Assembly (NCBI RefSeq): GCF_026151205.1
Contig: NC_087078.1
Coordinates: forward strand, 10,612,175 to 10,676,174
Length of the DNA: 64,000 bases
DNA from: Bolinopsis microptera
Taxonomy: Eukaryota; Ctenophora; Tentaculata; Lobata; Bolinopsidae
Reading direction: 5' to 3'
Positions within the stretch are counted from its first letter, which is position 1. Every line of letters begins with the position of its first letter. The translations under genes were made by a program, and so were the position numbers. A model generated the notes under the pieces. It searched no databases and had not been told where the DNA came from. It saw nothing but the letters and a program-made list of their open reading frames with translations. Positions 15,649 through 61,370 of this stretch are shown here, piece by piece.

Positions 15649-15659
15649 TAATGTTGAAA

Positions 15660-16267
15660 TTGCTGTTAAACTTTGTGACACAAACATGATTATTCTTGAA
15701 AAAATTAATACAGTGCGTTTGATTTGTCTCACGTCGCGATCCTCATTTTAGGTAACGAAAGCCGCGGATTCGTTAGCAAAACCTTGCCGAGTTGCTGCGT
15801 TAAAATACCAACAAGCAACACTTACAAGTAAATGTAGTGATATCCAATTCTATTATATTCTACCTTACTACTATCTACAACTTAACTTCATTGAACTAAA
15901 TAAAATGCGTTTGATAATGTTATAATAATCAATAAAATCAATAAAAGGATCGTAAACGTTACACAATAATTGTTATTATTTACTGCTGAACATTATTTTA
16001 TACGCTGCAAATTCAATCGACTGTAACTACAATTAAAAATAAAATACATATGATAATATGCTCTAGCCTCTAAATCTACAAATACTGCCCTGAATTATTG
16101 GCAGCTGCCTCCACATTACATAACAAAAAAATTCGTTTTATTTCTCAAAAATCCGGATTGCGATCTTCCTTGAGTAAGATCTAACTTAAAGAATTGTTGA
16201 AATTAAACTAACGGACAGCAAACATAAATCAGATGACATATTCCACATTTCCTTACACAATGCACAT
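15660..16267. other. 3' flank of the large fascin-like gene
   Basis: No gene is seen. On the minus strand an AATAAA signal occurs at 16142-16137, about 130 bases past the stop at 16268, and is a plausible polyadenylation signal. Confidence 0.4.
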
Positions 16268-37895: not shown

Positions 37896-40800
37896 CTGCG
37901 GGAGAAGATATTAGTGTTTTCCTGATTTCTATAAAAATGAGTTATACAGTGCTGCAAACATTTTAGGACAAAAGAGTTTCACTTTTGAAAGATTTAATTA
38001 TCATTTTTAATGACACACAGTGAGAAAAATAAACCTACATCATCAGGTTTAACTACCTGGAGGTTCTGATGAACTTTAGGCTGAGTTGTAAGTAAAACGC
38101 CGGGCATCTGTTTCTCAAACTTAACAGGGGTATTAAGCTCCTCGTTCCAGGATTTCACAGGGGACGAGGCTGTGGGTAACACTCGAACTTTTACAACACA
38201 TCCTTCTGATATCTGAGGCAGGGTGGAGACGGTTGAGCGCAAAATTACGCGCGCGATTTGAAAGTTTATTTAAATTGTTTCGGGTTGTCATGAATTAGCA
38301 TGTACAAAAAAGGATAATTCCATTTTAAGGTAGGAACCATTCAATGAGTGGATAAAGGATTTGTGTTCAAATATAAAGGGTCATTAACTCATCATCTTTT
38401 AGGTAATAACTTATTATCACGATTTTCTAATCATCAAACTACCTCCCCACAGTTATTCTCTCTAGAAGGGTACAGTAAAGAAATAAACGAACCTGTGAGA
38501 GGTTGAGCAGTTTGTTATCGTTATTGGGAGCCAATATCTCGTCTGCTATCTTCAGTTCTACAGCGTCGGGGGAGGATTTAGAGAACTTGGCCGCTCGGAG
38601 CCGGACTGCTGAAACTTTCTCGTTCACATGATGGAATACCTGAATAAAGAAGTTAATTCAGGAGATGTTATCGTGTTCATTTCGTACATGAATCGTGGAG
38701 TAAACAGTTACTTACGGCATATTATTCATTCATTAATATCCTTACATTTGACAACCTGATTCTGAATTCTGCATCTGGTCCTGATTTCTTTTACAGAGAA
38801 ACTATTAACTTACAAACGACTGAAAACATTTGTCCTTGCGATAACCTTTGCATATGATGAATGATCTAAAAACTGAATACACTATGACATAATCTGTGTA
38901 CCATATGTTAAAAGTTGGCGCTCCGCACCGGTAACTTGAACACGTGACCTAGAATTGAACACGTGACCTAGAATTGAACACGTGACCTAGAACTATACCG
39001 AGGTATTTCTCAGAAGCTCAGCCCAGTGCCCCACGTTCTCTTCAGCTCAACATTTTAAACTGAAAATCGTTTAAAGAGGGCAATTTGAAGAGGGCACAAT
39101 CGATTACTTGGAAGATTTCGCGGTTCAACCAATGAATCACGTTTTATATGATAACGAATGGCTCTTTACGTAGCTTAAATCGATACTATTATTTTCATGC
39201 TCGAGGACTTGACTTGTAATTTGGAATGTTCGAGGCTTCGCTGTAATCGATTATCATGCCCGCATTCACCTGTGCTTGATTAAGAAATGGACGTTTCTAT
39301 GGTTTTATTATCGAACAATTGCGCTTCTCAACCGTTGCCGTGCCATGGTCTCTGTAGATGACTTTAAATCACATCTAACTTAATTCCAACAGAACATCCC
39401 CGCGCCATGGTCTCTGTAGACGACTTTGAATCACATCCAACTTAGTTCCTACAGAGCGTCCATCGACCCCATTTGGGCCATTTAGAACAATCTGCTGAGA
39501 CTTTCGTCCCCTTTGATCGTTAAAATTAAAGCAAGAACTAGGACTTTAATATAATATAATAATGCCTTCGGCTCTTCGGGCTCCGCTTGATAATTCCCGA
39601 CAGCTTGCTGGAGGGAATTTGCGGCCCGAAGAACCGGAGGTATTATGTATTATAATATTTTCCGGTTCCGAATTGGAAGGGGTGTAATCCGATACGTGCG
39701 CATGATACAATATAGTGTCTAATATATAGAACGCCAGTGTTATTTGTTTTACAACTTGCCGCCAGCCAGTCTGAGGTCTATGCTGATAATACCTTGGCTT
39801 CCCTTGCGGGATATATCGGCAAATTATCAGCTCTCAGTGTCCGAGACTTTTAGTGGATATAATTCCCGGAAGGTATTATAACATATAACGTGGCTCCAAA
39901 GGACGAATATAAGTAAAATTAAATAAACTAAGTTATAAAGAGGCAACAATATGCTAACTCGAATTTATCAAATGGCTTACTAAATTTAAAGAAATGTAAT
40001 AAATGATAAATCCTATCAGGTTATTTAGTATTCAATGTAATATCATGATTTTGTAGGATCCGTCTGCTACTACAAACTAGCATCAAATAACACATTTGAT
40101 TGAATCCTGTTAAAAAATCCTGTGATCAAATCAAGGGGCTAAAAACCGCTCAATAAGAGTCCTGCATAATAACTTTAACCATCATTTTATGTTCTCTTAG
40201 GCTCGTAGGCTACCAAATTACTGATGGTAGATAACAAAATTGCTTCCTACCAACAAAATAATTGTCTTATCGAAATAACGCAGAAAACCTAAAAGCCATT
40301 TTTAGTGGAAACTACACGTTAGCAAAGCATTCGTGGCGGTTTTCCCGTTTTCGGTCAACCGTGAACAATTTTCAGCTACTCGGAACCGAAGCCATTGTGC
40401 CTTTAAGTCAATGCCATTGTAATTATTCAAAATAAGCTGCGACGGCAGTTTAAGTAACGAATACTACAGATGCGAACAATATTTCTCTTAATATTTACTG
40501 GAATTTGCCAGTGGGGTGGTAAAGTAACTACCGCGTGTTTTCACTGATTAGATTTGTCCTTCTGGGATAGTTGAGTCGTAACAGTACACCACGTGGCCGA
40601 CAAAAGGCCGGCAGATGGCCGCCGCAATTTTTATGCAACACTTCAAATTATAACAGCCCCAACTCATTTTTCCGCTTTTATACACGTTTCGTGGCTTTGC
40701 AATGTGTATCAAACACGTACAACAGCTAAAATCCCGGATTTCTAGATTCCAAGCTCGTTCATTAAATCTAATAAAGCTTGAGAAACTAATTGACGACATC

Positions 40801-43800
40801 TAACAGGTTTCAGCAATGACTGAAGAGCTGAACATGCACACTCTACAGTTTACAACTGGTATATCTCCTATCACCAGAGGACCTGACCCAAACCCAACTC
40901 CTCCCCCAGACCTGGGCTCTGCTTTTTACATCATCAACATGGTGGTTAACGCCCTGCTCGCACTCAGCGCTATCCTGCTCAACTCTACAATGATGATGTT
41001 CCATAGAAACAACCTCAAGGACACCGTCCCTTTCACCTACTTTACCCTGAGTGTGAGTGACTTTATGACGGGCGTATGCGCAGCTCTCCACTCCCTGATA
41101 TTTCTGCTCCTGCTGGTGCCGTGCACTGCACAGAACAGTGCTGCTATGTTCTGTTTGGTTGCTGGCTCTTACACTCTGACACTTGTGTCTGTCAGGGTGT
41201 CCTGTTTTGTAAGCCTGGTATTTGCTATGATACGGACTGTGAATATTGTGTGGCCCTTCCAAGTTGTGTATCACAAGCTGGTGGTAGCAGTAATAGCTTG
41301 CTATACTGCTGTTTGGATGTGCGTGTTCATCTCCGAGATTGTGGTTTTTGTTGGCACAAAAGAAGCGGATGCAGATGTTGACGACTTTCTAAATGAAGCA
41401 CTTCATTCGTTGATGAGAAGTTACTTCTACGAGCCAGCTGATTTTAAACTTATCGGTTATCTCATCAGCTCAGGAAGCACACAGTTATCACGTGACCACA
41501 CAGCTGAACTCTGCGTGATCCACATCTCCTACACAGCAATACCAGTCACTCTGTGTGCAGTGCTAGCCGGCGTAGCAGCTCTACTTCAACTGCACACCTT
41601 GGCACGGCGCCAGAGAACAGATCCTAACTGGAGAGATAACAAAGAGGTTAGCGTAAACATAACTCTGATAACCCTGGCGTTTGTGCTGTGTTCCAGCTCT
41701 GCCATCTGCCTGCCCATCTACAACTGCCTTGAAAGATCTGGAGTTGTCGGGCACCGGGATCTTCCTACTGCAACTAGGCTCCAGATGTTTTATTTGTTGA
41801 GTTACACTCCCTTTTTCGTTAACGCAGCCCTTAATCCTCTCATATTTGCGGTTAGAGTCAAGGTTTTCAAGGAGTGGGTATGGGATAAACTTGGTACGAT
41901 TAGAAAGGTTGAAAACAACACGGAGGACAATAATCGTTCAATAAATCGCAGATCAACCGTTAGTTCTCAGATAACTTCAATCTCAAGGTGTAACTCTGGT
42001 GATTCTCATGAAATAGCAAGTCAGCACGAAACCAACTTGTGAACTGTAATTGGATAGTTATATTTTTTAATTGAACTTTCTGTGATGCTGCGATTCAGAT
42101 GATTCGTTTTGGAAGTTGTAAATGTTTGAAGAAGTAAAATGTTGACAGACTATGAAAATTCTTTTAAAAATGTGACAAATCAGTTTTGTAGTTCACAGAT
42201 TATTAAGTCGGTGAATTGGTGTTAACTGTAGTTTGGGTTTAGTGGCGGCGGGGGAGAAGGCTTATCAGTGTTACCGATGATTTATTTGTATAAATGAACT
42301 ATTAGTTTCATGCATGGTTGACTTAATATTTATGAACGACGCAAAATATCTTATCTCAATTGAATTGCAGCAGAAAAAAAGGGAACAACACATGGAAAAT
42401 GTTTCCTCAATATTACCAAGACGAAAATACTAAATTAAAACTACTAACCCTGATGGCATTGTCCTTGTCGAGTTCCAAGTTGAAAGTTATGAGGGTGCCC
42501 AAATACCGAGCACCATGCGGCTCCAACAATCTGACTCCCTTGTGGGCGGACTCTGCCAGAACTATGTAATCTGTTGTAATGTTCAGGATGTTGGCTGTTC
42601 GTTTGAGGACCTCTTCGTTTGGTTCACTTCCTGAGGCTTCGACACAACCCTGGCGGAAATTTGAGTTATGTCTTCCACCCAGATTATATTCAGGCTTGAA
42701 TTCAGAAGTGAGATCTAAACGAAATAACGTTAAGAGTCCAAAGTTAAAACGAAAGGATTACTGTTCAGCTTACAGTTTTTAGCAAGCAAACATTTACATG
42801 TCGAATGTCTATATGGAACTTTGTTTGTTGATATGTCGTGTCTACAGGATCTCATACCTGAAGGAGCTCTTGACAATGATTAGTAAAGTTGAGATGCAGT
42901 GTTGAGCAGTCTTTCTTTAGTTTGGGGGAGAGTGCAGAGTGGTTAACTCTGAGAAGGTAGTCCATCGCATCACGTGACACAACTTCGTCCTTTGCTTCAA
43001 GTGAAACGTTCCAGATAAACTTCAGACCTGAGACGATGAAATAACGGTGCAGTGATACATCGAAACTGGGACTACCAAACAGATGAAGGGTAGTCACTGG
43101 TAAGTATAATATTAGTTTTCCTTGTGGATGTGAAACGAGGACGTTACTATAAACGTTCTTATATTTCTGAAACTCATTCTAGAAGAACTTTCTAGAAGAA
43201 CTCACCGGTCATCTTGAGACTTTCAACTGTAAAACTGTTAGCTGTCCAACGTTTTATTTTTCCATCACGCACGTTTATACTCTCAAAATATACCTGGAAT
43301 TCGTCAAATAAGATAGCGGGAATTGCTTGTTAGAAACAACATATGAAATGCCTTAAGTTATTTACTGTGTTAAATTTTACGATATATTTTATACTATGAT
43401 ATGAAATTTGAGTGGAGGAGCAGAATGAAATTCTTGGGATGAGCGGTTTACCTTGAAACAGTTGAAAGCCAGTGGGCGAATACAACTTGTATCCAATAAT
43501 TGCAATCTCTGTTCAAACAATTTCGTTTGTGTGTTCGGATCTAAGTCGCTGACCGCTTTGGAAAACCAGTCACAACATTCATCATAGTGCTGGAGCGCCG
43601 CTGGAATATTATCATAGGATTACGAATCAATAGGAACAAAATTCGAATCACAAATCCAATTCTTTATTCTATGTGAGCAGTGAGACTAGTTTGTTGAATT
43701 ATAAACAGTTCCAGCCCAGTATTTCATTGTTAAGCCCTCGTGAGGTTAGTGATTGATCCAGGTTGATCTCAAAATTACAATGGAAAATCAAACTGGAGAG

Positions 43801-46800
43801 CATAATATCGGGTAACTGGCAAAAGTCCCGCACACATTGGGACGTCCGCGGAGTTTCTCGATGTAATCCGACTTATATGACCCTAAATAACACTTATTAC
43901 TCGGGTACACTTTTTCACCAGTGGGGCATTTCTCGGAATCACGCCCTTTTTGACCGCACCCATATTGGGACCCCCACTATAAATTATCTCGGCTTCTGAT
44001 TGAGATACAGACCTCAATTATGAACCAAAATGTGCCTAAGATGCATGTTTATATTAGTGCTATGAAGATACTTAAGGCCTAAGAGACTTAGTTTTTGAGA
44101 AATCGCCAAAACCCGATTTTACTATATTAGCAGTCTCGTGAGTAACAATTATTACACTTATTTCAAGATATCTCAGCTTCTGATTGGAGCTAAGCGCTCA
44201 TCTTGGGCATGAAAATGGTCAGAATCATCATATTGAGTGGGATAGAGCATGGTTTTAAAGTCTTCAGACTTCAGGTTGTTGAGTTATTAGGTCAGATCTC
44301 ATTTTTACGCTCTCGCGAGTAGCGATTGATGCACTTATTTCAAGATATCTCAGCTTCTGATTGGAGCTAAGCGCTCATCTTGGGCATTAAAACGGTCAGA
44401 ATCATCACATTGAGTGGGGTAGATCATGGTTTTAAAGTCTTCAGACTTCAGGTTGTTGAGTTATTAGGTCAGATCTCATTTTTACGCTCTCGCGAGTAGC
44501 GATTGATGCACTTATTTCAAGATATATCAGCTTCTGATTGGAGCTAAGCGCTCATCTTGGGCATTAAAACGGTCAGAATCATCTCATTGAGTGGGGTAGA
44601 GCATGGTTTTAAAGTCTTCAGACTTCAGTTTGTTGAGTTATTAGGTCAGATCCCATTTTTACGCTCTCACGAGTAGCGAGTACGCTCTCGCGAACGGCTT
44701 AGTGGCTCAGTTGTTAAATCGGCCTGGCATTTTTCGAGGTACCAGGTTCGATTCCCGACTCTGTCACTAGCCGTGGGGTGATCGTCGTCGACGCTCAACT
44801 AAGTACCCTGAGTGGTCTATGCAACCCCCCAGTCCACTCAGCCGAATACTCGAGTAATCGGGTGTGAGGGTTAAATGAGGAGCTGCCCATTGCAGCAAAG
44901 TCTCGGGCGACGAAAGTATGGTACACACTACCTTAACCGTCACTGGCCTAATGTATAATTGAATCCTTCGGCTTCCTGTAATTGACTGGTTACACTTGTG
45001 TAACAATGTGGTTGTTGGAAAGTCCGAAGTAAAAAAAAGTGTTGAGATTTTATGCACTTATTTTTGATGCACTTATTGATGCACTTATTTCAAGATATCT
45101 CAGCTTCTGAGTGGAGATATTTATAAGCGTTCATCATGGGCATTAAAATAGTAAGAATGATCAGATTAAGTAGCATCGAGCACGGTTTTAAAATCTTCAG
45201 ACTTTAGGTTATTAAATGATTAGGTCAAACCCTATTTTTATGCTCTCGCAAGTATAGTCACTGCAATGGTGAAAATACAGGGTGGGCCAAAAGTCAGTAC
45301 CCATACGTTGGCCTTTATAGCTCAGTCACTGAGTGCCCAATTTAAATACTTCCTTCTGGTATGACTTAGTACCACCACTGGTTCGAGGAATTTGTCAACT
45401 CGAAAAATATTCGCGTTCATTTTTTTCAAATGGAGGTTCATTTTTGCATTTATTTGATAGTTTGGATAGTCGGATCAAGCTAAATGTTATTGAATTGTGT
45501 TTGGCCATTCGAATTACGTTTGTCCTGAAAGAATTAGAACTGTAGCTTCTCAGATGACCGAGATATGAAGCATAACGAGTTTATTCATTACGTGTGATCA
45601 GGTGATTGGTTTACCTAATCACGTGATAAGGTGACCCCGTTAACTACCCCGTTAAACATTATGGGAATTGTTAAGGGTGCCCAATTAAGGTGTCGTGTCA
45701 CGGTGTCACATAATCACCCAATCAATTTTGTTAACGTGATACAGAAAATGCTTGATAACTTCGTCATTTCTAATCCGTTTTGCCTCATGTTTTCAGATCA
45801 TATGCAACATTTGATAATCTACCGTCTCTGAAAAAATTAGGCGTTCAGCATGTTCAGAGAAAACAATATAGGTGTTTTAATATTGAATGGGCGTGGTCTA
45901 AAATATTCGAATTTTCAAATTTTGACGACGGAATCCTCGAACCAGTAAGTACAGTATTTCATCTGCAAAGCAACAGCTCTCAAATATAAAACACGGCGGA
46001 GTTATTAAGGCCAACGTATGGGTACTGACTTTTGGCCCACCCTGTATTTATAAAATGAATTTTAATTAATCGCCAAGAAATGCCAGTGAAATTTCACTAA
46101 AACCTCTAGCCCTAGGAACATGCTTTACCCTACTTAATTTGATCATTCTGACCATTTTAATGCCCATGATAAGCGCTTAGCTTCTATCAGAAGCTAAGAT
46201 ATCTTGTAATAAGTGTGTCAATTGCTACTCGCAAGAGCGTAAAAATATGTTTTAACCTAATAAATCAACAACCTGAAGTCTGAAGACTTTAAAACCATGC
46301 TCTACCCCACTCAATGTGATGATATTGACCATTTTTGATTTTAATGCCCAAGATGAGCGCTTAGCTCCAATCAGAAGCTGAGATATTTTGAAATAAGTGC
46401 ATCAATCGCTACTCGCGAGAGCGTAAAAATGGGATCTGACCTAATAACTCAACAACCTGAAGTCTGAAGACTTTAAAACCATGCTCTACCCCACTCAATG
46501 AGATGATTCTGACCGTTTTAATGCCCAAGATGAGCGCTTAGCTCCAATCAGAAGCTGATATATCTTGAAATAAGTACATCAATTGCTACTCGCGAGAGCA
46601 TAAAAATGAGATCTGATCTAATAACTCAACAACCTGAAGTCTGAAGACTTTAAAACCATGCTCTACCCCACTCAATGTGATGATTCTGACCGTTTTAATG
46701 CCCAAGATGAGCGCTTAGCTCCAATCAGAAGCTGAGATATCTTGAAATAAGTGCATCAATCGCTACTCGCGAGAGCGTAAAAATGAGATCTGACCTAATA

Positions 46801-49800
46801 ACTCAACAACCTGAAGTCTGAAGACTTTAAAACCATGCTCTACCCCACTCAATATGATGATTCTGACCATTTTCATGCCCAAGATGAGCGCTTAGCTCCA
46901 ATCAGAAGCTGAGATATCTTGAAATAAGTGTAATAATTGTTACTCACGAGACTGCTAATATAGTAAAATCTGGTTTTGGCGATTTCTCAAAAACTAAGTC
47001 TCTTAGGCCTTAAGTATCTTCATAGCACTAATATAAACATGCATCTTAGGCACATTTTGGTTCAAAATTGAGGTCTGTATCTCAATCAGAAGCCGAGATA
47101 ATTTATAGTGGGGGTCGCAATATGGGTGCGGTCAAAAAGGGCGTGATTCCGAGAAATGCCCCACTGGTGAAAAAGTGTACCCGAGTAATTAGTGTTATTT
47201 AGGGTCATATAAGTCGGATTACATCGAGAAACTCCGCGGACGTCCCAATGTGTGCGGGACTTTTGCCAGTTACCCGATTAAAATCCATCAGCTGTGTCAT
47301 GCTGGCCATGATCCAAAGGTTTTATCGCGCCATGTTCGATAAACAAAAGTTTTGCTATTGCTAGTTTCAAATGCTTTTTTTCATATTTGAATCATTCAAT
47401 TTGTTTCGCGCGCTACGCAAATCACACAAAATAAGAATTTGGGCCAGAAAACGCGCGTAAATCTCGTTCCCGCTTAAATTACCATTTGGAGCAGCAAGGC
47501 AGTCCCAGATTGCTTCGACGTGATTCCAATGCAGGAAGTCACTGCAATGATCCAGTACTAATTTCAACATCTGAAGAAGATTATCTTAAATTATTTATTG
47601 GATATAAGAGTGCAAATTCTAACGAATTGAGTTAAGAATTCAGTGTTTTTACAATAATAGAAGGTTAACGCAGATGCTAATTGACCGACAATTAAGAACA
47701 AGCTAATTACCTTGAGATGTGTATGGACACACTCAGTAAGCGTGTACAACGAATCATTGCATCGTGTATCAGGATGTATTTTGTCGTTGTATTTATCTGT
47801 TATACTGGTGTAGTTAGAGACCAGGCTGTTTGTTATCAGCTTCACCGCTAACACGCTGTTTTGTAACTCCTGAAATAATAACATAAAGTTTCAGTGTCAC
47901 CCAATAATTAACATTACTAATTAATTAAATAATTAACATGCTGAACTAATCACACGTGTTATGGTTGGAGAAACAAATTCTTCGCTCACCTTTTAAAACA
48001 CGTAAATTAACCGAAGAATTACAACAAAAGGAAGAATAACACTAAATTTATCGTACTCTTCAATTTCACTAAATTCAAGAAGAAAAAAAACTTACTCTGA
48101 GAATATTCTTCCCAAGTTTAGAAGAGGACTGTAAACAGTTCTGAAGTATTCTAACAAGATAGTTCATGGCTGGTACCACCCATTCCCTGTTCTTAATATC
48201 GGCTATACACTTCATTACATACTCCTTCTTACAGTCGTCCTGGTTAAGTTTAAATCAGTATATACAGACTTTTTAAAGAGCGTTAACATTGTTTCTTTGA
48301 AAAGAAACAAGGTATAGGATTAATGGTGCAATCGAATCATGAGTATTGAGTAACATTGAATATGTAATATGTAATATGTAATGAATTGTACATAACGGTA
48401 ACCGGATCATTAAGACAGTCGATAACATTCAAAATTAACAATTGTGATAAAATAAGAGTACTAAAACTAATAATATAATTGAAACAAGATATTATAATTA
48501 GGAGAAAAGATAAAAACCTGGTAGGTAGGTGAGTTAAGTAATTCCAGATGAAGTGTCAGACCTTGCTCTATTTCTTCTATACCCACATCTTTCAGGTGAA
48601 TCAGCGCCCAAACCTGCTCCAATACCAGTGGCAACTTACCTGAAGTTAACACGTGATTAGTTAACATGAACACGTGGTTAACGCGTGGTTAACGCGTGGT
48701 TAACGCGTGGTTAACGCGTGGTTAACACGTGTTTCAGGAGAAAATATGCCAAAAACTTGGGACAATTTACTTATAATAAGTAGATAATTACTTATTACTA
48801 GTACATAATTAAAATGTAACCCAGTTTGAATTGTTACCTAGTTTTCCAAGGAGGGAGAGAAGTCTTTGTCTGCCTTTATGGTCCTCCTTTAACCAAGATT
48901 GTGTTATCAGTGTAAAAAGATGATTTGCTTGCTTCTGAAAATAATAACTTTCTTCAAATCTCTTCAGGTTACGATAAGATTGCATGTTACAAAAAGGTAA
49001 TTACGTGTTTTACACTTGATGAAATGTAACAGTAGATTGCAATGCACACCATAAGAAATTTAAATCAAATCAAAATGTTACCTCATTAAAGTGAACAGCC
49101 GCAGCTGCAATAATGTTGTGAGCATTCTCAACAACCACCGGCTGTCTGCCCTCCTGCAGCTTCCAAAACTGGTTTATATCTTCCTGAAACACAAGGAAAT
49201 ATTTTGGCTGGGTTATGAATGGCTGGGACGCAAGAAAACTGTACATTTTTTTCAAAGTAGTTATCACAGTGACATTATATCTATCACGTAAGAAAACAAA
49301 TACCCTAAATAAATTAACAAAACTATTCCTCTCACCGCCGTGATGGAAGCACCAATAAAGTCAGCTATCTTCATGATCTTAGCGGTGTACTGTGACTGAT
49401 GCAGGTTGTTCTCCAGCGCCACCATCAGGATCCTTTGTTGAGTTAACCACTCCAGTACTCTCTCCGAATCTATTGGGTACTTCTGGTTCAGGTCACGTGT
49501 TTCCTCCACTATACGCAGTGTCTGGGATGTGTCACGTGGTGAGAAAGGGGCTCAGCGCGTGTATATCACATGTTCAGCGCATGGTAACCACGTGTTCAGC
49601 GCATGGTAACCACGTGGTAAAACGCTGTTTAACACATTTATTTATGACATGATTAGAACTGAAAATCATGAGCGCAGGAATTTGTTATCTGAAAGGCACG
49701 TATCAGGTATTACTTAATTGTTTACTGATCAGCATCATGCAGTATTTACTAACTTTGAAAGGAATGCAAAATATGACGAACTGCATGCCTGGTCTTGTAA

Positions 49801-52800
49801 TCAACAAAAGGACGCACACGTGGCTTTATAATATTTGCATAATTTAGCAGTGCTACAGGTATAATTAGCAGCAGCTATGCAATACCACATACACAATGCA
49901 CAGTTGCACTGTGTAATTTTACCAAATAAAGTGATCGTTAACACAAAAACATAATTAACGTGATCACATAATTAAACATTATTTATTATAACGAGGCAGA
50001 CACAGGCAGGATTGTTACACATTCCTTAGAGTATTTGTATCGTGTTTTACTTAATTACTAACTTAAATAAAAGGACAGACAATTTAAAATATGTACTTTG
50101 TAGGTTATACCTCGTTTAGAGCATTCATTCTGGCGTTAAAATGGGAAGTTGTCAGCATTTTCTTTATTTCTTGTAGTCTCATCTCGTCCATGCCTTTAGC
50201 ATCCTGAGGAATTATAATTCAGTTTTCAGTTGAGCAGCGGTAGAAATTATGTATTTGACTTTTCAGAGACAAATACAGTGTAATATTTTAAAAAATATAA
50301 CGTTAATAATATGATTCGGTTATTGAGGACTTGCACCATGTTTATATGGTATTTGAAGTATTAATTCACATCTAATAAGGTTTGTGTTAACATTTTTATC
50401 ACAAAGATTCGGATATTATTGCCATTTTTCCTCACACATATCCAATAACGATCATGTTACAGTTTCAAATTAGATTTTAAAGTCAAATAAATTGATCGGC
50501 TCCTTGTTGAACGGTTTGATGATTTTCGATAATCACAACAACATCAAAACCCATCAAACCCATCAAAACCCATCAAAACCCATCAAAACCCATCAAACCA
50601 TATATATATTCACTTACACCTGGTATAGTATTCTAGTGGCAGAATATTTAAGCTGAATATACACATAATATATATAAGCTTGCAAATATGATCATCACAG
50701 ACTAAAACTATCAATAATGAAGAATTAAAAATGTATAAACAGAACGAATATCTTACCACATTGGCACTTACCCCGATAGTGAACTGGTTGCCACAGCCAG
50801 TACAGATAAGCTTCATGGACACAAGCAGATCACATACTAAACCAATCTCTTTAGACTTGTAATCTTCCACTGTCATTGACTTCATCGCTTCTATACTCGC
50901 CTGTATAAAGTTAGTTCTAAACTTTTATATTTTGGATGAGTGCAAGAAAGTACGCATTATTTACTATGGTTACAATACCAATCCCACTTTCCAAGTCTAT
51001 AATAGTTACAGAGTGCACAATATAATAATACATCATGACAGATAACATTGTTATCTGCATCCTAAGAGAGCACTCATATTCTGAGTTACTCACAGGAACA
51101 AAATACAGATAAGATAAATATCTTGTCTGTATTTGATACTGTAATATTACAGTATTTAGAGCTGCTGTGTAATGTAACCTGCATGAGCTGTTTGAAGATA
51201 GGGCCCAGGGTTTCAGGAACCAGGTACTCTATACATTTCCCCCACGGTTTCAGGACATGAGACAGTAAGAACGGGGATGGCTTCTCTTCTCCACACGCGT
51301 GGGACCTGGTTATGTATTCATGTTGTTAACTAGACAGTTTCATAGAATTTATTTCATCTGAAAAATCAACATTATGAACTTAATTGGGTTCAATCGATTA
51401 TAATTTTTCGATTAAAAACTACGCTTTGAAATAACTTGTAAGCTGTAAGAGACAATAATGGGGGTACTCACAAAATAGCTTGAAATCCTCCCTCTACTCC
51501 GAATGTGTTAATAAGAGAAGCTAACCAGCCGTAAGGATCTCTAAAGGTGGTTCGAGGAGGACACTGCGCGTATGCTACATCCTGCCAGAACAGAGAGTTA
51601 GCTTAAAGTCGTACAAAGCAAATCGGTCAATATAACAATTTGACGTTTGATAGCTATTATTAATTAAATATATATGTACCGTTTAAATTTGCTGCACATA
51701 TGTTAAGCTACCACAGTGTTTTTGGTTAAAAAGTGACTTACATGGCTAGAATTGTGTTTGGATCGTTTTGACCTGTTTCTGAAGTTGAACTCAGAGCGAG
51801 GATCCATTACAGTGGATAATATTTTTAGTACACTCAAATCCAGGCTGAAAAAGTAGCCGTTAAGGGTTAATTAAATAATTATCTAACAAATTACTTGACA
51901 TTATTTTTATTACTAACAGATTAACAATCTAATCAAGCATTATCTAATTGTCTAATTAACTCATTAACTCATTAACAACTATACATTCTAAAAGTCCCAC
52001 CCAAATAACAAACGTGTTTCTGAGCTGAGAGACAGCGAGAGCGAGGTAGGTTGAGGTAATGTTGTAGATAGCGTCCTGCAACTCGCTGTCGTGTAGGGGG
52101 GTGTTTGTAAGGAGCTTGGTAAATGCTACTGGGAGCACCTAAAATACAGTTTATATTTGTAAGGAGGTTGGTAAATGCTACTGGGAGCACCTAAAATACA
52201 GTTTATATTTGTGAGGAGCTTGGTAAATGCTACTGGGAGCACTTAAAATACAGTTTATATTTGTGAGGAGCTTGGTAAATGCTACTGGGAGCACCTAAAA
52301 TACAGTTTATATTTGCGAGGAGCTTGGTAAATGCTACTGGGAGCACCTAAAATACAGTTTATATTTGTAAGGAGGTTGGTAAATGCTACTGGGAGCACCT
52401 AAAATACAGTTTATATTTGTGAGGAGCTTGGTAAATGCTACTGGGAGCACCTAAAATACAGTTTATATTTGTGAGGAGCTTGGTAAATGCTACTGGGAGC
52501 ACCTAAAATACAGTTTATATTTATAAGGAGGTTGGTAAATGCTACTGGGAGCACCTAAAATACAGTTTATATTTGTAAGGAGCTTGGTAAATGCTACTGG
52601 GAGCACCTAAAATACAGTTTATATTTGTGAGGAGCTTGGTAAATGCTACTGGGAGCACCTAAAATACAGTTTATATTTGTAAGGAGGTTGGTAAATGCTA
52701 CTGGGAGCACCTAAAATACAGTTTATATTTGTAAGGAGGTTGGTAAATGCTACTGGGAGCACCTAAAATACAGTTTATATTTGTAAGGAGGTTGGTAAAT

Positions 52801-55800
52801 GCTACTGGGAGCACCTAAAATACAGTTTATATTTGTGAGGAGCTTGGTAAATGCTACTGGGAGCACCTAAAATACAGTTTATATTTGTAAGGAGGTTGGT
52901 AAATGCTACTGGGAGCACCTAAAATACAGTTTATATTTGTGAGGAGCTTGGTAAATGCTACTGGGAGCACTTAAAATACAGTTTATATTTGTGAGGAGCT
53001 TGGTAAATGCTACTGGGAGCACCTAAAATACAGTTTATATTTGTGAGGAGCTTGGTAAATGCTACTGGGAGCACCTAAAATACAGTTTATATTTGTAAGG
53101 AGGTTGGTAAATGCTACTGGGAGCACCTAAAATACAGTTTATATTTGTAAGGAGCTTGGTAAATGCTACTGGGAGCACCTAAAATACAGTTTATATTTGT
53201 AAGGAGCTTGGTAAATGCTACTGGGAGCACCTAAAATACAGTTTATATTTGTGAGGAGCTTGGTAAATGCTACTGGGAGCACCTAAAATACAGTTTATAT
53301 TTGTGAGGAGCTTGGTAAATGCTACTGGGAGCACCTAAAATACAGTTTATATTTGTAAGGAGCTTGGTAAATGCTACTGGGAGCACCTAAAATACATGTT
53401 ATATCACAGTGCTGGCAAGCACGACCGCCACCATTATACTCACTATACTATTTACCCAATATATTATTATACCCCCTTTACTGCTTTTCAGGCATTAAGA
53501 CTTACCGAAAGTAGTTCAGCAGGCATATTTTAAGTTCAAAACATTCTAATTCAATGTCAAAGATGACAGGAATAAGAAATAGTAATGTGGAGGTTTTTAA
53601 GAAATTTTACTTTATATTTCGACTTTGTAAAGTACCCTGACATTAACGAGGTCTGATCGTCATCTTCTTACAGCGTTCGATATCTGTGTGAAGGTAAAAT
53701 GGTGACATCCTCTGGATCAGGCAGAGGTCGCGTGTTATCAGGATTACTTTTGTAATAGTTATACAGCAATACTAAGGTATTTCCGCAGTAGTCCCATTAC
53801 CCTGACATTGATCAAAAAGAGATGATATTTTACCAAAACCCATAATTGGGTAAAGTGGACGGCTGCCAGTGTCTCCCGTTCCCAAACAAAAGTAAATGAT
53901 ATTACTTTGAACGACTGTCAGCAAATACAAAATGATACCGAGAATGAAATCGGTCGCTCGCTTTTCCCATTCATTCACGGCTTTTCCCATTCATTCACGA
54001 TTTACAGATTAATATCATTTACTTTGGGGGGGGGGGGGGGGGGCAACCATATTAAAGTATATTAAAATGTAGGATTTTTCCCGATTTTGACCCGGGATAT
54101 ACTTTAATATACTTTAATATACCTACAATATACTTTAATATATCCCTATCTTCTTGGAGGCCTACATTAAAAATTGTTGCCCAAAATAAGCTTGAAATGC
54201 AATTCTTAATTGATTCCAAAAAGTTCTTGAAAAAATATTGAAAACTGATGGAGTTATTTCAAATTTAATGAAGTCATTTTGGCTAGTATTCCGAACCGAG
54301 ATATTATGTGCAATTTTCCCAATTTTGTTCATGGAGGTCTTTTTACTTAGTATCCACTATATTCAACAAACACTGAGTTATATCTTTCACATAGAGTTAG
54401 GCTCATTAAAAAATATTGAAATTTTATCGAATTTGGGCAAAAGCGTATGCCCAAATATGGGCATATTTTTTTAAGCTCATAGCTCAGCCAATTTTTGACC
54501 AATCTGGATGAAAATCCATGTACTAGTCCAAAAACAGGCTTATCTTGCAGAGGCACATATTAGGTGCGGTAAAAAAATCGAAATTATGCGGTACCGCACC
54601 CGACTATAAAGGTAAAATGTGCGGTAAGGTGCGGTAAATTTTTACCAATTATGCGGCAAATGTGCGACGATTTTTTCGAAATTTGTGCGGGAATTGTGCG
54701 GTTTTCTTTTGCATTTTCTGAAGGACTTTGGAAATTCTAAACGTATAACCGCCGCTCTTATCAAAAATATGTCTGTTTATGTGTTACTGAGGGTGTAGTT
54801 CTTTACTAAGACCATGATTGAACCTATATTGAGATTCAGTTATCTGAGAACAGTGACTTGATCTGGTAGAGATCAGGAGACAGTTATTTGAAGACGCCTC
54901 TTGATAGAGTCGATCAGATCTCATGCGTGATCGCAAATATGTGACACGCTTGTTGGCATTGATCGTCAGTACTTGTAAACCATTTGATCCCAGATCCATT
55001 AAGCCCACTATAAAGCCAACGCTACAACGAATAGAGCTCACTACCCGATAAAAAGGGATGCAGGTATGATCCAAGTACGGTAACGACGAGGGTTCCATAA
55101 CGGCCTGGGTCACGGTCCCGAAAGGGCCTGGGTAACGGTCCCGACAGGGCCTGGGTCATGGTCCCGAAAGGGCCTGGGTCACGTGGTAACCGGGTCACGT
55201 GGCCTAGGCATGAGTTCCAAAAGGGCCTGGGTCACGGTCCCGAAAGGGCCTGGGTCAGGGTCCCGAAAGGGCCTGGGTCACGGTACCGAAAGGGCCTGGG
55301 TCAGGGTCCCGAAAGGGCCTGGGTCACGTGGTAACTGGGTCACGTGGCCTAGGTATGAGTTCCAAAAGGGCCTGGGTCACGGTCCTGAAAGGGCCTGAGT
55401 CACGGTCCTAAAAGGGCCTGAGTCACGGTCCTAAAAGGGCCCGATTTTTAACATATTTTGGTTTTTACACTCGAAAATCTTAACGCGAAAATTTCAAAAT
55501 TATAATAACAAAATGTGCGGAAGTGTGCGGAAAACAATAAATTATGCGGAAATGTGCGGAAAACGGTAAATTGTGCGATCCCGCACCTAATATGTGCCTC
55601 TGTTATCTTGCGAATCTGAGTGAAAAATATAGTTCATCATGTAAATCTTAACGAAGAACATAAACACCCTACGCGCGTGGGGTGGACTCCTGGGGTGGAC
55701 TTTTATTCAGCGCGTATTTTGTAGCCTGTTCAACTTGACGTTTTGATTCGTTACTATCTCAATGTCACAGATACACAGAATGTGAGGTGATCATCTTAAA

Positions 55801-58451
55801 GAGAAACGTCTCAGCTTTCACCTGGTGTAAAGTTTATCTTTGTACTCAAAATATAGCTCGCTCAGTGTGCAATAGAAGTTGACAATACAATAACCACGTC
55901 TGCGACCGGTCGTCAGATACCGGAGTGTTGCACAAAATTGGGTCCCTAAATTAAAATTCTATGACACAGTTACCATGCAGAAATGTCTAGGGAAACATTT
56001 GGTGAAAGTTTCAACTCTCTACTATAAAAATAGCGATAGTTATTGAAGATAAACCGTGAGAAACTCCCTCTTGTCGAGAAGGACGCTCTAGGAACCTCCC
56101 TTCTGTACCACGTGACAACGATTTGAGCGTCACGTGGCCGTCACGTGACAAAAGTGCGCGCATCGGATTGAGCAGTCTCGTGGGAAATCCTGATTGCCTG
56201 ATCGATCTCGTGGGAAATCCTGATTGCTACGGAAAGGGCTGACAACCACAGTTATTTCCCTTCCTCAATTTTCCAGTTCACTTGCTCAGTGCTGTCAGTT
56301 GTTTTTTGTTTGCCCTGCTATATAAACTTCACTCCGTCATAATCCCCTACTCCCCTATCCAATGAACTGTTTCTGTTACAGCTGCCATTCTGTTGACTGG
56401 ACCCTAACTTAGTCTCATCATTTTCACTTGATAACTTTATCCGTGTGCACTTTCTCGAAACTCAACTTATCTTTGTCAAGACTCAGCTAATCTCAGAACT
56501 AAATGTTGCCTTAACAGACTTACTTGTCACTGCACTGGGCCCTCCTTTAAATGCAAATATCATATGAGCAGCTGATCGATTTATTGCTTGAACTGTGCAT
56601 CCTTTTTAAAAATATATAAGGTCAATTTTACTATCGTGAAACTTAGTCACTGAAGACAACGCAATCTGGCTGTGCCGGTTCCCCTCTGCCTAAATCACTT
56701 AGAATATCCATAGTTAGCAATACTTTTATCGTTTAATGCAGCGATATAGCCAGTTATCAATGCTACATAGTAGATTTTAGCCTGTTCCAATCATCCTTAT
56801 ATCGCGTTAATGGAATTTATGAAATTGCCTACCGTTCAAATCGCTCTCTGTTGTTAGCACCACACTGATTAACTACGATGTTCCAATTTTTTAGAATTAT
56901 GTCCGACATAATTCTAATTTTTGCTGTTACAGCAGATAGTTATGGTGTAATGGCACGCAGGAATAAGTCATCCCTGTCCTCCAAAAAGCACATGAAAAGG
57001 TATTTGGTAAGCTATGTCTTTTCCAATATCAAATCCAATGTATCACAATCTGTGGACTTTCTACTCAAAAACTAGATTGATTAATTGATAATTCATTGCT
57101 GATTGTTCACGCGCCCTGTATGGAAGTATATAAATGGTAATCCGCATACTCCAGGAAGAATTGAAGCAATCTCAAAAGAAAAGAAGGGAATCTGGATCCT
57201 TCGTCGGATCGTCAAAGAGCTTAGAGGGGAGCTCAACGCTTCACTGGCCATGCAAAGCAGGGAGAGTGACGGAGGCGGAGGCACTGCTGGCTGCTGGAAC
57301 GGACATTAACAAGCTGGACAGAACGCAGTTTAACCCTTTCATGGACGCGATCAACTCAGGTAAATCATTTGACCGCCTTAACAATATGGGTTTATCTAAC
57401 ATTGGTAATAGTAGCAAGAGGTTTTAGTCATGCGTTTGATTACAGCACAGTGTGAAACCCTGAAGCATACGTCGAGCTCTAAACTCTGTTTTGTCTGATA
57501 ATCAATTATTTGAATATTGAAGGATTAAATTTGGTAACTTGATGATCACATAATTAACAGGACAGGTCGACTGTGCTAGATGGCTGCTGAGGCAAGACGG
57601 TTTAAAGCTTCAGCCCGAGATATGGTCGTTTTGTAGGGAGAGGGTGCTAGAGTCATTGCTAACAGCTTAACAGAAGGTAAAATCCTGAACTTTTGTTCAT
57701 TGATTAAAAATCACCATCCAGACATACAATCGTTCAGATGTAAAAATTATTTATTCACTATTTTGGATTACATTTAGTTACAGGACTAACATGCGACATC
57801 CGTCGTTGACCTTTGTCTTTATTTCAGCAAGGTAGGGAGAGCGATCCATGGCTGTCCCGATAGACCCACTCAGACTCCTGCCGGAAGATACTCCTCCGGT
57901 TGATCCAGATGAGACAGTTCTAGCAGATGATCAGTTACAGACTGAAGAACATATCCCACAGATCAATGCGTCAACATCTGCAAATGAAGGTACTTCAATC
58001 TGCTCTTCTTGTATATGTCTTTGTGCCTGCGTCTGTGATTGTACTGAAGTGTACTCTGTGTGTTTGTGTCTGTGTCTGTCTTTGTATCGTGTGTGTGTCT
58101 CTGATTGTACTGCGTGTGTCTGTAATTGTAATGTAGTGCACTGAAGTGAACTATGTGTGTTTATGTGTGTGTGTCTGTGTGTGTCTGTGTGTGTCTGTGT
58201 GTACTGTGTCTGTCTGTGTGTCCGTCTGTGTCTGTGTGTGTCTGTGTTTATGCCTGTGTCTGTGTGTCTATGTCTGTATGTGTTTGTGGGTGTGTGTCTG
58301 TGTGTCCTTGTCTGTGTGTAGCTGTGTCTGTCTGTGTGTCTGTCTGTGTGTCCGTCTGTGTCTGTGTTTATGCCTGTATGCCTGTATGTCTGTGTCTCTG
58401 TGTGTGTGTGTCTATGTCTGTATGTGTTTGTGGGTGTGTGTATCTGTCTGT

Positions 58452-58530
<79 letters not shown>

Positions 58531-61370
58531 CTTTCATAGAAGTTGTTATTTCCAAGATACGAAGTTCGAAAAGCTAGCATTTAGTAATAGACGGATTTTG
58601 CAGCTGATATCAGAATCGACATGATGATGGTACTACACGAGATGCTCATGGAAAAGGTCTCCGTTTGCTTTCCTCCTCCCACGAGCAGTACAAAGTGTGG
58701 GTTCAACTTTAATCTGATAGAAGATATCGTATGCGGAACCCAAGCCCGGCCATGTCTGTGCATAATAACGAAAGAAACCGGTAAGTTTCTAATCATGTAA
58801 ATGTTCGGCCGAACGTTTGCATTCATTTTAGACTAGTGACGAAAATCAACAATCGTTTGCCAGTTTGGTTTGCAAAATCGACAAAAAATAGTCCATTCCC
58901 CATGGCCATGATATTAGAATTCTGCCCGTTGAAATCGGCCACTCTGATTTTTATCATTGAACTTCACATTGATGACATGTTCATTCTCTACAGGTTATGC
59001 TGCGAGGGCGTTTACCTCGATAGATGTTGAAAATGCCCACAGCATTATAAATCATTTGGACCGCCGAGGGGTCCAAAACTCCTCAATCGAAGAGCTTAGT
59101 AGACATGCCAGCAACCTACAGAGACTTCAAATTCTCAGGAAACCTCTCTAGGACGGTAATACATTAACTTGTTTAGTTGATAAATTTAATAAGTAGATTT
59201 TGAGTGATGATTACTGAATACAGATATCGAGCCTCGAGGTACCATAAAAAGGGTATATAAACTTATCACTTATGCTTATATGCTTATACTATCAATGAAT
59301 ATCAAATCGCCTTCTCTAGTTATCAAACCCAACATAAGTTAAATCTCTGCCTACAAGGACTATTTGATATTTACAACAGACCGAGTGAATGTCTCAATCT
59401 TTTCAGGAAGCTTTATACTCCGACATCCACAATTTACCACGCCCCTGAGATCGACAAAGGTCTTTCTGATAGATTGACTTCCAGCCAATTCGATCTATCG
59501 AAGCCGAGTGGGAAGAACAAAGAACTGAAACCCCATGGTCGCAACGATGCTCCTCGCGGACAAGGGAGAGTTAGGGCCATCGGTGGTCACAAGACTGCAG
59601 AATATTTATTTTTTAAGCGTTGAGGTTGTCACGAAAGCGTACTGTAACGGGACTATCAGATTTGAGTGATTTGATTTTGTGATTTGCAGTTCACGTGATT
59701 TTATTGTGATTTTAGACTGTAAAAACTATAAAGGTTCAAGTTGAACTATCGTCGCCATGATTATGTATTTTGGAACTGTTCACGTTGAAATTGCTTCGTT
59801 AATCAGCAGTCTTCCTTGGTTACTTTCTACTGTGTAATGCAGCTACGATCAACGATACTTAGCTAGTACATTCATAGTAACACTAACTGCACTGAGAAGA
59901 GTAAAAAATTTGAGCTTTGACGGAATAACATTTCCTTGTTTTTAGATACGGTTACTACTCTAGTGAGGGGTTCATAGCTGATCATTAAGGTCTTACTCAC
60001 AATAATTTGTGCTCTGATATTGGCCGTACTGACGGCTGTTGAAAAAGCCACTCCATCAGATGCGCGCCGCAAGAGTCCACCCCTGTAGACCCCACTACGT
60101 ACAAAATTTGAAATTTTCCCAAAAACTTCTGATTAAGCTACCGTAGTTTGTTTTCAATAACTTTTGCAATATTTACAGTAGACCCTTCAAATTTTCACCA
60201 AATGTTACTCCAGACATTTCTGCATGGTAACTGTGTCATAGAATTTTAATTTAGGGACCCAATTTTGTGCAACACTCCGGTATCTAGCGACCGGTCGCAG
60301 ACGTGGTTATTGTATTGTCAACTTCTATTGCACACTGGGCGAGCTATATTTTGAGTACAAAGATAAACTTTACACCAGGTGGAAGCTGAGACGTTTCTCT
60401 TTAAGATGATCACCTCACATTCCGTGTATCTGTGACATTGAGATAGTAACGAATCAAAACGTCAAGTTGAACAGGCTACAAAATACGCGCTGAATAAAAG
60501 TCCACCCCAGGAGTCCACCCCACGCGCGTAGGGTGATAAATCTTCTAATTGTAGGTATATTAAAGTATATTAAAATGTAGGATTTTTTCCGATTTTGACC
60601 CGGGGATATAATTTAATATACTTTAATATGGTTGCCCCCCCCCCCCCCCCCCCCACTTTTGTTTCGAAAAGAGAGACACTGGCAGCGGTCCACTCTACCC
60701 AATTATGGGTTTTGGTCAAATTAGTCATTGAAAATAGTTGTACCAGAAACGATTGATTCAACCATAATAACATGAAAAACACAATCCTTCAAACAATACC
60801 TCATACAGAAACTTTTTACAGTCATCGTTAGATTGCACAATGTTCTTGTCAGAAAGCCTGGTAGCAGCATTAATACATTTTAAGAGTCCCTCCCCTTCTC
60901 TGTAATTCATAGACCAGTTCTCGCTGTATATCCTACTCTTGATATCTTTGAGCACTGAAGATTGGATTTATGATGAAGGCTACATCTATCATGACCATTT
61001 CTGAAGGAACGTCTAAAATTGATTACTGTTACCTCACAGTAATCAATAACATCAAGTTTCAGATTTAAAAAAATAATATCAACCCAGCCAAATTCTTAAA
61101 ATACTGGCCCAGTCAAAGATATAAATGATAGTGACAGCAACAAAAACCTTGGGCAGGAAATTCTTCTTCTTCCACCTCAAATGCTTCAATCTCCATTGGC
61201 TGAGTTCCCTTATTTTCTAGATGAGGACCGTACGGGACAACAGCTCTACTTGGATCAGTCAAGTAAGCAACAGCTTCACTGACATCTTTTTTACAGTGTT
61301 CAAGTGCAGCGGAGCTTTCCTCGTATCCAAAACCCATGTTAAGCAGTGTACTTAAAGCTTCATCCCCCAT
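33756..61370 (-). CDS. USP24: USP24-like ubiquitin carboxyl-terminal hydrolase
   Basis: Deubiquitinating cysteine protease. Exons in order: 61148-61370, 60800-60954, 52014-52138, 51742-51844, 51472-51581, 51179-51305, 50772-50900, 50111-50203, 49336-49521, 49082-49183, 48838-48934, 48518-48639, 48096-48239, 47711-47869, 47483-47570, 43452-43600, 43206-43293, 42858-43027, 42449-42694 (acceptor uncertain), 38493-38639, 38057-38212 and 33756-37895. The sum is about 2,352 residues; vertebrate USP24 has about 2,620. Exon 1 encodes a UBA-like domain (TLLNMGFGYEESSAALEHC). Exons 9-10 carry the conserved ALENNLHQSQY and ENAHNIIAAAAV. Exons 19-20 match the ubiquitin-like insert. The peptidase domain is in the last exon: Cys at about 1499, His at about 1759. 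Every junction keeps frame except the one into exon 19, where TTTAG at 42715 gives the wrong phase and I used CAAG|CCT; a small exon could be missing. Confidence 0.9.
38640..40815. other. USP24 intron 19, part before the GPCR
   Basis: Holds three exact 19-bp units (TTGAACACGTGACCTAGAA) at 38936-38992, each with an E-box CACGTG; a 70-bp direct repeat at about 39335-39475 (CCATGGTCTCTGTAGA core); and an inverted repeat near 39555-39655 around TCGGCTCTTCGGGC and GCCCGAAGAACCGG. No gene is seen. Confidence 0.65.
40816..42042 (+). CDS. Rhodopsin-class G protein-coupled receptor, single exon
   Basis: 408 residues. Seven hydrophobic segments are placed at about 37-60, 73-100, 110-137, 153-178, 235-260, 278-302 and 322-346. 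Family landmarks: Asn56 in helix 1, Asp82 in SVSDF of helix 2, Cys113 with a partner Cys233 before helix 5, CLP in helix 6, and NPLIF at 340-344 in helix 7. The DRY triplet after helix 3 is replaced by IRT in MIRTVNIVWPF, and the NPxxY tyrosine is Phe. The 60-residue tail is rich in Ser, Thr and Asn. The ligand cannot be inferred; divergent amine- or peptide-type receptors of invertebrates have this look. It lies antisense within USP24 intron 19 and is intronless, suggesting retroposition or the common intronless state of this class. Confidence 0.85.
   Translation: MTEELNMHTLQFTTGISPITRGPDPNPTPPPDLGSAFYIINMVVNALLALSAILLNSTMMMFHRNNLKDTVPFTYFTLSVSDFMTGVCAALHSLIFLLLLVPCTAQNSAAMFCLVAGSYTLTLVSVRVSCFVSLVFAMIRTVNIVWPFQVVYHKLVVAVIACYTAVWMCVFISEIVVFVGTKEADADVDDFLNEALHSLMRSYFYEPADFKLIGYLISSGSTQLSRDHTAELCVIHISYTAIPVTLCAVLAGVAALLQLHTLARRQRTDPNWRDNKEVSVNITLITLAFVLCSSSAICLPIYNCLERSGVVGHRDLPTATRLQMFYLLSYTPFFVNAALNPLIFAVRVKVFKEWVWDKLGTIRKVENNTEDNNRSINRRSTVSSQITSISRCNSGDSHEIASQHETNL
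44691..45035 (+). mobile_element. tRNA-derived SINE
   Basis: The head has a pol III A box TGGCTCAGTTG (44703-44713) and a perfect B box GGTTCGATTCC (44745-44755), 31 bases apart. A tRNA-unrelated body of about 270 bp follows, with an A-rich tail (GTAAAAAAAAG) near 45025. It sits between two monomers of the left foldback arm. The 5' part cannot fold as a full tRNA, so it is not a tRNA gene. Confidence 0.8.
45278..46044. mobile_element. 767-bp Tc1/mariner-like MITE
   Basis: The inverted ends CAGGGTGGGCCAAAAGTCAG run about 38 bp and are almost perfect. TA flanks it on both sides (45276-45277 and 46045-46046). The interior has no recognisable transposase. It is inserted at the centre of the foldback element and is therefore younger. 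Confidence 0.88.
48670..48732 (+). repeat. 11-bp tandem repeat GTGGTTAACGC
   Basis: Five near-exact units directly beside USP24 exon 12 (acceptor at 48640), within its upstream intron. Confidence 0.85.
52106..53397. repeat. 52-bp minisatellite, about 25 copies, made of a splice acceptor
   Basis: On the USP24 sense strand each unit reads from exon 3 start (GTGCTCCCAGTAGCATTTAC) through a short AT-rich link to CTGTATTTTAG. The unit contains the intron 2 acceptor and about the first 33 bases of exon 3. The copy nearest the gene interior is the real exon boundary (exon starts 52138). Units differ at a few positions only (TAAGGAGG, TGAGGAGC). Confidence 0.95.
54548..55602. mobile_element. 1,055-bp hAT-type non-autonomous element
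   Basis: The ends are CAGAGGCACATATTAGGTGC and its exact complement, flanked by TTATCTTG on both sides (54540-54547 and 55603-55610). CAG-starting ends with an 8-bp duplication fit hAT. Subterminal GTGCGGTAA/GTGCGGAAA motifs are repeated at both ends. At 55100-55440 there is a tandem array of about 24-bp GGGCCTGGGTCACGGTCCCG units. No transposase. Confidence 0.93.
56950..57670 (+). CDS. Short ankyrin-repeat protein, 3 exons, 123 residues
   Basis: Exons 56950-57006, 57155-57359 and 57561-57670 join in frame with good GT-AG signals. A basic N-terminus (MARRNKSSLSSKKHMKR) is followed by about two ankyrin repeats: TLHWPCKAGRVTEAEALLAA, GTDINKLDRTQFNPFMDA and GQVDCARWLLRQDG. The frame ends at TAA 57668-57670, only six bases before a good donor (AG|GTAAAA), so the exon may belong to a longer transcript. 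It lies in the core of the inverted-repeat block, antisense to USP24. Function unknown; it may be a captured gene fragment. Confidence 0.55.
57848..59151 (+). CDS. Unrecognised spliced protein, 3 exons, 158 residues
   Basis: Exons 57848-57989, 58604-58780 and 58994-59151 join in phase 1 at both junctions. An acidic proline-containing start (MAVPIDPLRLLPEDTPPVDP) leads to a Met-rich segment and then a C-terminal helical part (VENAHSIINHLDRRG, ELSRHASNLQRLQIL). The stop TAG at 59149-59151 again lies four bases before a donor-like GTAATA. An in-frame TAG precedes the ATG, so direct continuation from the ankyrin exons is excluded in this frame. It may still be the second half of the same gene, broken or differently spliced. 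No family recognised. Confidence 0.5.
58010..58525 (+). repeat. TG-rich microsatellite
   Basis: Degenerate GTGTGTCT repeats grading into pure (GT)n at about 58455-58525, within the intron between the first two exons of the gene above. The cysteine- and valine-rich open frames over it are spurious. Confidence 0.95.
59256..59624 (+). other. Open frame of about 120 codons, possible 3' exon
   Basis: The frame is open from 59256 to TGA 59622-59624 without an ATG at its start. The downstream part has coding character: FDIYNRPSECLNLF, KLYTPTSTIYHAPE, SKPSGKNKELKPHG, then RAIGGHKTAEYLF. Acceptor-like CTCTAG and TTTTCAG occur inside it. Its phase does not fit the previous exon's donor, so I leave it unattached. 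Confidence 0.35.

Follow-up and report, generated by a model that had tools for sequence, protein, structure and literature searches.

The so-called mirage minisatellites of amphioxus duplicate exon-intron boundaries, on the acceptor as well as on the donor side, and seem by reverse transcription-polymerase chain reaction not to disturb splicing (PMC3087553), no aberrant mRNA resulting from the duplicated splice sites (PMC3087553, PMC3902484). The one at the globin gene BflGb6 has six units in one haplotype and three in the other (PMC3087553); further amphioxus cases are described for Adh and TnC and, with imperfect repeats, for PGBD5 (PMC3902484), and somatic instability has been reported for the Adh3 mirage minisatellite. 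In human IFI6 (also known as G1P3 or 6-16), the units of a minisatellite serve as alternative donors and give rise to isoforms (Turri 1995, as cited in PMC4526556), and intron gain by tandem duplication has been treated in the AGGT model of Rogers and for the potato RdRp (PMC4974935). Here, we describe a 52-bp minisatellite of 25 copies at the boundary of the second intron and third exon of a USP24-like gene of the ctenophore Bolinopsis microptera. The gene lies on the minus strand of a stretch of 64,000 nucleotides (assembly GCF_026151205.1, contig NC_087078.1, positions 10,612,175 to 10,676,174; GC content 39.9%), hereafter the window, to whose numbering positions refer. We consider it highly probable, from the sequence analysis given below, that this array is a mirage-type minisatellite seeded across the intron-exon boundary, that only its last copy is used, and that it is most likely tolerated without a function of its own.

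The array occupies positions 52104-53404 and was recognized by Tandem Repeats Finder (TRF) as 25.0 copies of period 52, with 97% matches, 0% indels and a score of 2420. Unit-by-unit reading of the minus strand reveals 25 acceptors, spaced exactly 52 bases apart from 53386 to 52138 without an indel. The acceptor TGTATTTTAG, followed by GTGCTC, is found with its AG intact at 23 of these, while the remaining two, at 52970 and 52242, have TTTTAA instead of TTTTAG. The unit is composed of 35 bases of exon 3 and about 17 bases from the 3' end of intron 2, and only five of its 52 columns vary across the 24 upstream units. The coding copy of exon 3 agrees with the units over its first 35 bases, carrying one of their variants at the variable columns, and departs from them at column 36. 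Upstream of the first copy stands ATATAACATG, where the other copies have ATATAAACTG. The intronic part of the array (52139-53404) holds 24 decoy acceptors, 22 of them with an intact AG. These readings bear out the claim of an earlier note on this DNA that about 25 tandem acceptors lie in a 52-bp unit at this exon, and correct two of its figures: each unit contains 35 rather than 33 exon bases, and the array spans 52104-53404 rather than 52014-53397, position 52014 being the end of exon 3.

Assembly of tandem arrays is difficult, and a related 71-bp array in a USP9X-like gene (discussed below) adjoins a run of N; one could suppose that the present array has been collapsed or inflated and that the true locus carries one or a few copies. 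However, the unit variants of the 1.3 kb array follow one another in an irregular order and without indel, similar arrays are present at several loci, each with its own flanks, and such arrays are known biology in amphioxus, so that an assembly artefact appears extremely unlikely. The genome (264.65 Mb, 232 contigs) was also searched with the 52-bp unit, and all 12 of the 12 matches listed fall inside this array. A mobile or satellite family was ruled out because, among the matches listed, the unit is present only at this locus.

The gene that bears the array is USP24-like, as judged by its domains. A 1384-residue open frame on the minus strand contains a UCH domain (Pfam, expectation value (E) 6.8e-56), and the first coding exon contains a UBA domain (Pfam, E 5.6e-06). 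We take an N-terminal UBA and a UCH domain in a very large protein to define USP24; both domains were found here, and the sequence comparison was made with human USP9X, the nearest solved relative among the matches listed. The gene assignment of the earlier note holds by these two domains. All parts of the gene are on the minus strand. The first coding exon, with the UBA domain, spans 61148-61370 (ATG start and CAAG/gttttt end read by eye), and exon 2 spans 60800-60954 (start placed by eye at the acceptor cttcag), terminating with ..CKKFLYE at 60800 in phase 0 with the donor gtattg. Intron 2 (52139-60799) is 8661 nt long, with the donor GAG/gtattg and the last array copy as its acceptor. Exon 3 (52014-52138; 125 nt; donor AC/gtttgt) begins at the 25th acceptor and, with exon 4 (51742-51844) and exon 5 (51472-51581), continues in frame. 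The long open frame with the UCH domain (33756-37910) is taken as the 3' part of the gene, the intervening exons being partly modelled.

The choice of the last acceptor is suggested by both homology and reading frame. When it is used, the joined exons align to human USP9X (E 5.6e-10) without a gap across the exon 2/3 junction. One extra unit leads to a stop 76 residues past this junction, in exon 4, two to five extra units lead to a stop 38 residues past it, and the exon's own frame has at least one stop at every number of extra units from 2 to 24. Since only the last acceptor gives an open frame together with gap-free USP9X homology, this 25th acceptor is very probably the one used. The earlier note had proposed that an extra unit shifts the frame and that further units run into a stop, which translation of 1 to 24 extra units showed to be right, and its assignment of the exon and acceptor holds up by the gap-free homology through the junction. 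A start of exon 3 at an internal CCCAG, the score of which is almost equal (3.8 versus 4.2), was rejected: after the phase-0 end of exon 2, the first codon read would be TAG. An RNA hairpin covering the acceptor was also considered; a stem is possible, but with a z-score of -1.2 and 17 of 200 shuffles folding equally well it was rejected.

We hypothesize that the array began with a short duplication that joined base 35 of exon 3 to an intron position some 17 bases ahead of the acceptor. Paralogs of other arrays show the one-copy state behind this step, which is not seen at USP24 itself. Unequal exchange or slippage would then have raised the number to 25 copies and homogenized them. As the frame and homology suggest, the last acceptor would be the only one that the spliceosome joins to exon 2, since recognition of exon 3 would rest on the pairing of this acceptor with the donor 125 nt downstream. 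The upstream copies, which offer a weak acceptor farther from the exon 3 donor, would stay intronic, and a slip to any earlier copy would result in a premature stop. For the used acceptor, the branch point is probably situated in the preceding copy, within what was formerly exon; a branch-point-like CTTAC or CTCAC is present in exon-derived sequence 21 nt before the repeated AG. Large flanking introns have been described to favor the sites closest across the exon, and short introns those closest across the intron (PMC9225289); the 8661-nt intron 2 would favor exon definition, and thus the last copy.

Low-copy counterparts of such arrays could be identified in the same genome. A genome search with the UCH frame revealed, on contig C13, pieces of exon repeated every 89 bases. 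This contig carries two USP9X-like genes in inverted arrangement, A at 13.93 Mb and B at 13.71 Mb, mostly 91-99% alike across the aligned pieces and less so at repeats. At the start of the catalytic-cysteine exon, A has an 89-bp acceptor array of six copies, 100% identical, and B a single copy; the unit consists of 30 intron bases ending in CCCGTAG and 59 exon bases, and the last copy continues into the exon. The start of another exon of A has a 45-bp acceptor array of 78 copies, with the AG present in 78 of 78, as against one copy in B. Conversely, B has a 22-bp acceptor array of 122 copies, which ends in the acceptor of an exon and includes about three exon bases per unit, as against two copies in A. 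These three paralog contrasts (78 versus 1, 6 versus 1 and 122 versus 2) speak for a mirage-type origin of the USP24-like array. Provided that the last copy is used, the USP9X homology passes through the 45-, 89- and 22-bp acceptor junctions with no added residues; in the 45-bp case, the 43-residue start exon has no match alone and aligns within a longer USP9X stretch. A 71-bp acceptor unit, single in B, is seen in 2.5 copies in A, adjoining the run of N, and its exon has weak USP9X homology (best stretch i-Evalue 4.5). A 35-bp unit on the donor side ends an exon (..CSSQFVRQ/gtttgt) of weak USP9X homology (E 0.027), with 20.8 copies in A and 16.8 in B.

While the array copy numbers in this inverted pair diverge greatly, the coding sequence compared is nearly unchanged. 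Over 12 exon pieces and 500 codons, A and B differ by 18 synonymous and three nonsynonymous changes, which corresponds to a ratio of nonsynonymous to synonymous rates (dN/dS) of 0.044; therefore, purifying selection kept both copies working for most of the period that followed the duplication, a signal that the youngest arrays may postdate. Upstream of USP9X-B, we also note about 6.3 kb of a 45-bp unit with CAG/GTGAGA, comprising 130 units with the donor-like string intact in 129. Its length is a multiple of three and it is open in one frame, so that splicing from later donors would add repeats of 15 residues and meet no stop. The exon proposed to precede it is a guess from the open frame and has no match in solved structures, because of which this array is not counted as a confirmed donor array.

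The strength of the repeated sites was assessed with a splice-site matrix. Sixty-four introns were fitted from 66 adjacent exon pairs and 56 were kept as the reference, eight being dropped by hand (length mismatch, low score, one duplicate) and one row with a mismatch of 4 being kept; the fit proceeds by picking good sites and may inflate the reference scores. Against this leave-one-out reference, the USP24-like array acceptor is at the 12th percentile of 56, and the other array acceptors are at the 7th (89 bp), 11th (22 bp), 39th (71 bp) and 59th (45 bp) percentiles. The array donors are at the 93rd (35 bp), 59th (40 bp), 93rd (45 bp, unconfirmed) and 89th (26 bp, two copies) percentiles. In post hoc, one-sided Mann-Whitney tests, array acceptors are weaker than ordinary ones (n=5, P 0.038, the set including the 2.5-copy 71-bp case with its adjoining run of N and weak homology) and array donors are stronger (n=4, P 0.014; P 0.041 without the unconfirmed 45-bp case, 0.035 without the two-copy case and 0.11 without both). 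Weak as this lead is, the asymmetry would, if real, fit co-transcriptional splicing, wherein decoy acceptors are transcribed ahead of the true site and would have to be poor, and decoy donors are transcribed later than it.

The same scores bear on the suggestion of the earlier note that TTTTAG/GTGCTC resembles a recursive splice site. Each copy would then act first as acceptor and then as donor, and the array would be removed stepwise as 52-nt introns. Such a scheme could draw on the GT that starts every unit and the AG that ends 22 of the 24 upstream units, on the GT following the AG in three of the five acceptor arrays (52, 22 and 71 bp), and on the gene's own exon 2 donor, which, being at the same 5th percentile, is no better than the GT of the unit. 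However, TAG/GTGCTC at the 5th percentile of 56 donors is weak, though not impossible, about 13% of all GT sites score equally high, and the 45- and 89-bp arrays lack a GT after the AG. Given the weakness of this donor and the lack of the GT in two of the four further acceptor arrays, the suggestion is not supported, and stepwise removal of the array seems hardly credible.

Several observations weigh against a tolerated mirage-type minisatellite spliced at its last copy. For the USP24 array itself, no one-copy ancestor was found. In USP9X-A, the 89-bp array lies in a short intron (73 nt in B), where intron definition would favor the first copy; besides, its six identical units may be so recent that selection has yet to act on them, and the dN/dS averages over older time. 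The strength matrix comes from 56 introns only, and the acceptor of the 45-bp array is an ordinary one at the 59th percentile; therefore, weakness is not needed for tolerance. Finally, a branch-point-like motif is found in 43 of the 56 reference introns and is missing from the inspected bases of the other 13, which makes it a weak guide.

Arrays of this kind are recurrent in the genome. To the USP9X-like pair, where three of four arrays in A (expected 0.33) and two of two in B (expected 0.11) straddle a junction, and whose counts are biased as it was noticed through one of its own arrays, we add a sample not chosen for arrays. It comprises 29 loci found via the myosin, SNF2, chaperonin and tRNA-synthetase families, with 155,223 bases and 124 exons (126 family hits, two overlaps merged), 20 of 25 further planned regions having entered it. 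Counting arrays of at least three copies and a period of at least 20, the sample has 14, one of which straddles an exon end as against 0.44 expected by chance. This is a 40-bp donor unit that follows the P-loop exon of a myosin-family gene in 22.1 copies of 100% identity, at a locus that also has a 26-bp donor duplication of two copies; no acceptor array is present among the 124 exons of the 29 loci. Enrichment of arrays at junctions is suggested by these counts. Among the rejected candidates, a 48-bp unit in two copies at C3:9157283 starts at a donor but is intronic and spans no junction, and the 20- and 30-bp arrays of locus L035 and a 32-bp repeat of locus L042 are near exons without spanning a junction.

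With like structures at other exons of the genome as well as in amphioxus, the view that the array is peculiar to USP24 is not borne out. This also bears on a regulatory role, such as the tuning of USP24 output by copy number that the earlier note considered, in which decoy acceptors would be used at some rate, the products would be lost to nonsense-mediated decay and the length of the array would set the output of USP24. Each use of a decoy would indeed give a premature stop, the AG is kept in 22 of the 24 upstream acceptors, and such arrays vary in length between paralogs. Nevertheless, two of the 24 are broken and the remainder appear simply homogenized, and the same structure at other exons and in another gene family is better explained by a mutational process at work in this genome than by a device of USP24, which makes a regulatory array quite improbable. 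A broader proposition is that splice junctions are favored birthplaces, or places of survival, of minisatellites in this genome, so that hundreds or more of genes would have tens to more than a hundred copies of a splice site, and that their survival depends on the direction of transcription, acceptor arrays persisting mainly at weak acceptors and donor arrays at strong donors. We hold it to be doubtful; if true, the genome would be a natural library for measuring the choice of the spliceosome among identical sites.

The window has other features of note. Inside the USP24-like gene, a single open frame of 412 residues on the plus strand (40804-42042), antisense to the gene, has the look of a seven-helix receptor, as an impression only, and a Pfam scan of this frame gave no match. 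Two arrays of one 177-bp unit (44134-44679 and 46119-46951), also inside the gene, are in opposite orientation about 1.4 kb apart and are perhaps a mobile element with repetitive inverted ends. For a 62-bp pair at 39338-39455, an exon could not be assigned, and a repeat at 49552-49616, though near an exon, does not span a junction. Elsewhere, a cluster of similar open frames (..YHGKYVSAQPDGRIEVNR..) is present on the minus strand at 10980-24575; Pfam gave FRG1 matches for two of these (E 1.2e-08 and 1.3e-07) with Fascin below the cut-off, and the third frame tested has no Pfam match. Near these FRG1/fascin-like minus-strand frames lies an array of a 21-bp unit (17040-21625, 4.6 kb, about 218 copies) that holds AG/GTATAC and for which a junction span could not be shown. 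The open frames at 11909-15637 resemble pieces of a non-LTR (long terminal repeat) retroelement, the one tested giving a sub-threshold Pfam hit. A plus-strand open frame at 29860-31014 contains minisatellites of 51 bp (five copies) and 42 bp (5.4 copies), both multiples of three.

The choice of the spliceosome among equal sites is usually studied with few copies. The arrays described here present 6, 25, 78 and 122 acceptors, and about 17 to 22 donor copies at exons of large conserved genes. They come with low-copy controls, a near-identical paralog being single-copy for two of the acceptor arrays and two-copy for a third, and they allow 'first come, first served' to be compared directly with intron and exon definition.

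With regard to described systems, the USP24-like array resembles other minisatellites with a splice site at an exon edge, such as that of IFI6. However, IFI6 uses its downstream units as donors, whereas the USP24 array offers acceptors, and use of its decoys would truncate the protein. As in intron gain by tandem duplication, a duplicated segment with a splice signal creates extra splice sites; that process makes a new intron, whereas the USP24-like copies lengthen an existing one, and tandem-duplication models of intron change gain young examples. The closest likeness is to the mirage minisatellites of amphioxus Adh3, TnC and the globins BflGb6 and BflGb9. As in these, the unit of the USP24-like array spans an exon-intron boundary, and the ctenophore arrays are found at several genes and at either boundary, the donor-side cases being those of the myosin family and a USP9X exon. 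The host is of a phylum other than that of amphioxus, and no ctenophore case of a junction-spanning minisatellite is among the matches listed in the open-licence literature; mirage minisatellites appear to extend from cephalochordates to a distant animal phylum. The arrays of 25, 78 and 122 copies contrast with the six and three of BflGb6, variation in copy number is known here between paralogs (78 versus 1, 6 versus 1, 2 versus 122 and 20.8 versus 16.8), and two acceptor arrays, unlike the amphioxus mirages, have a one-copy paralog in the same genome. We assign the USP24-like array to the known mirage kind, to which it adds a ctenophore host, large arrays and built-in low-copy controls as new features.

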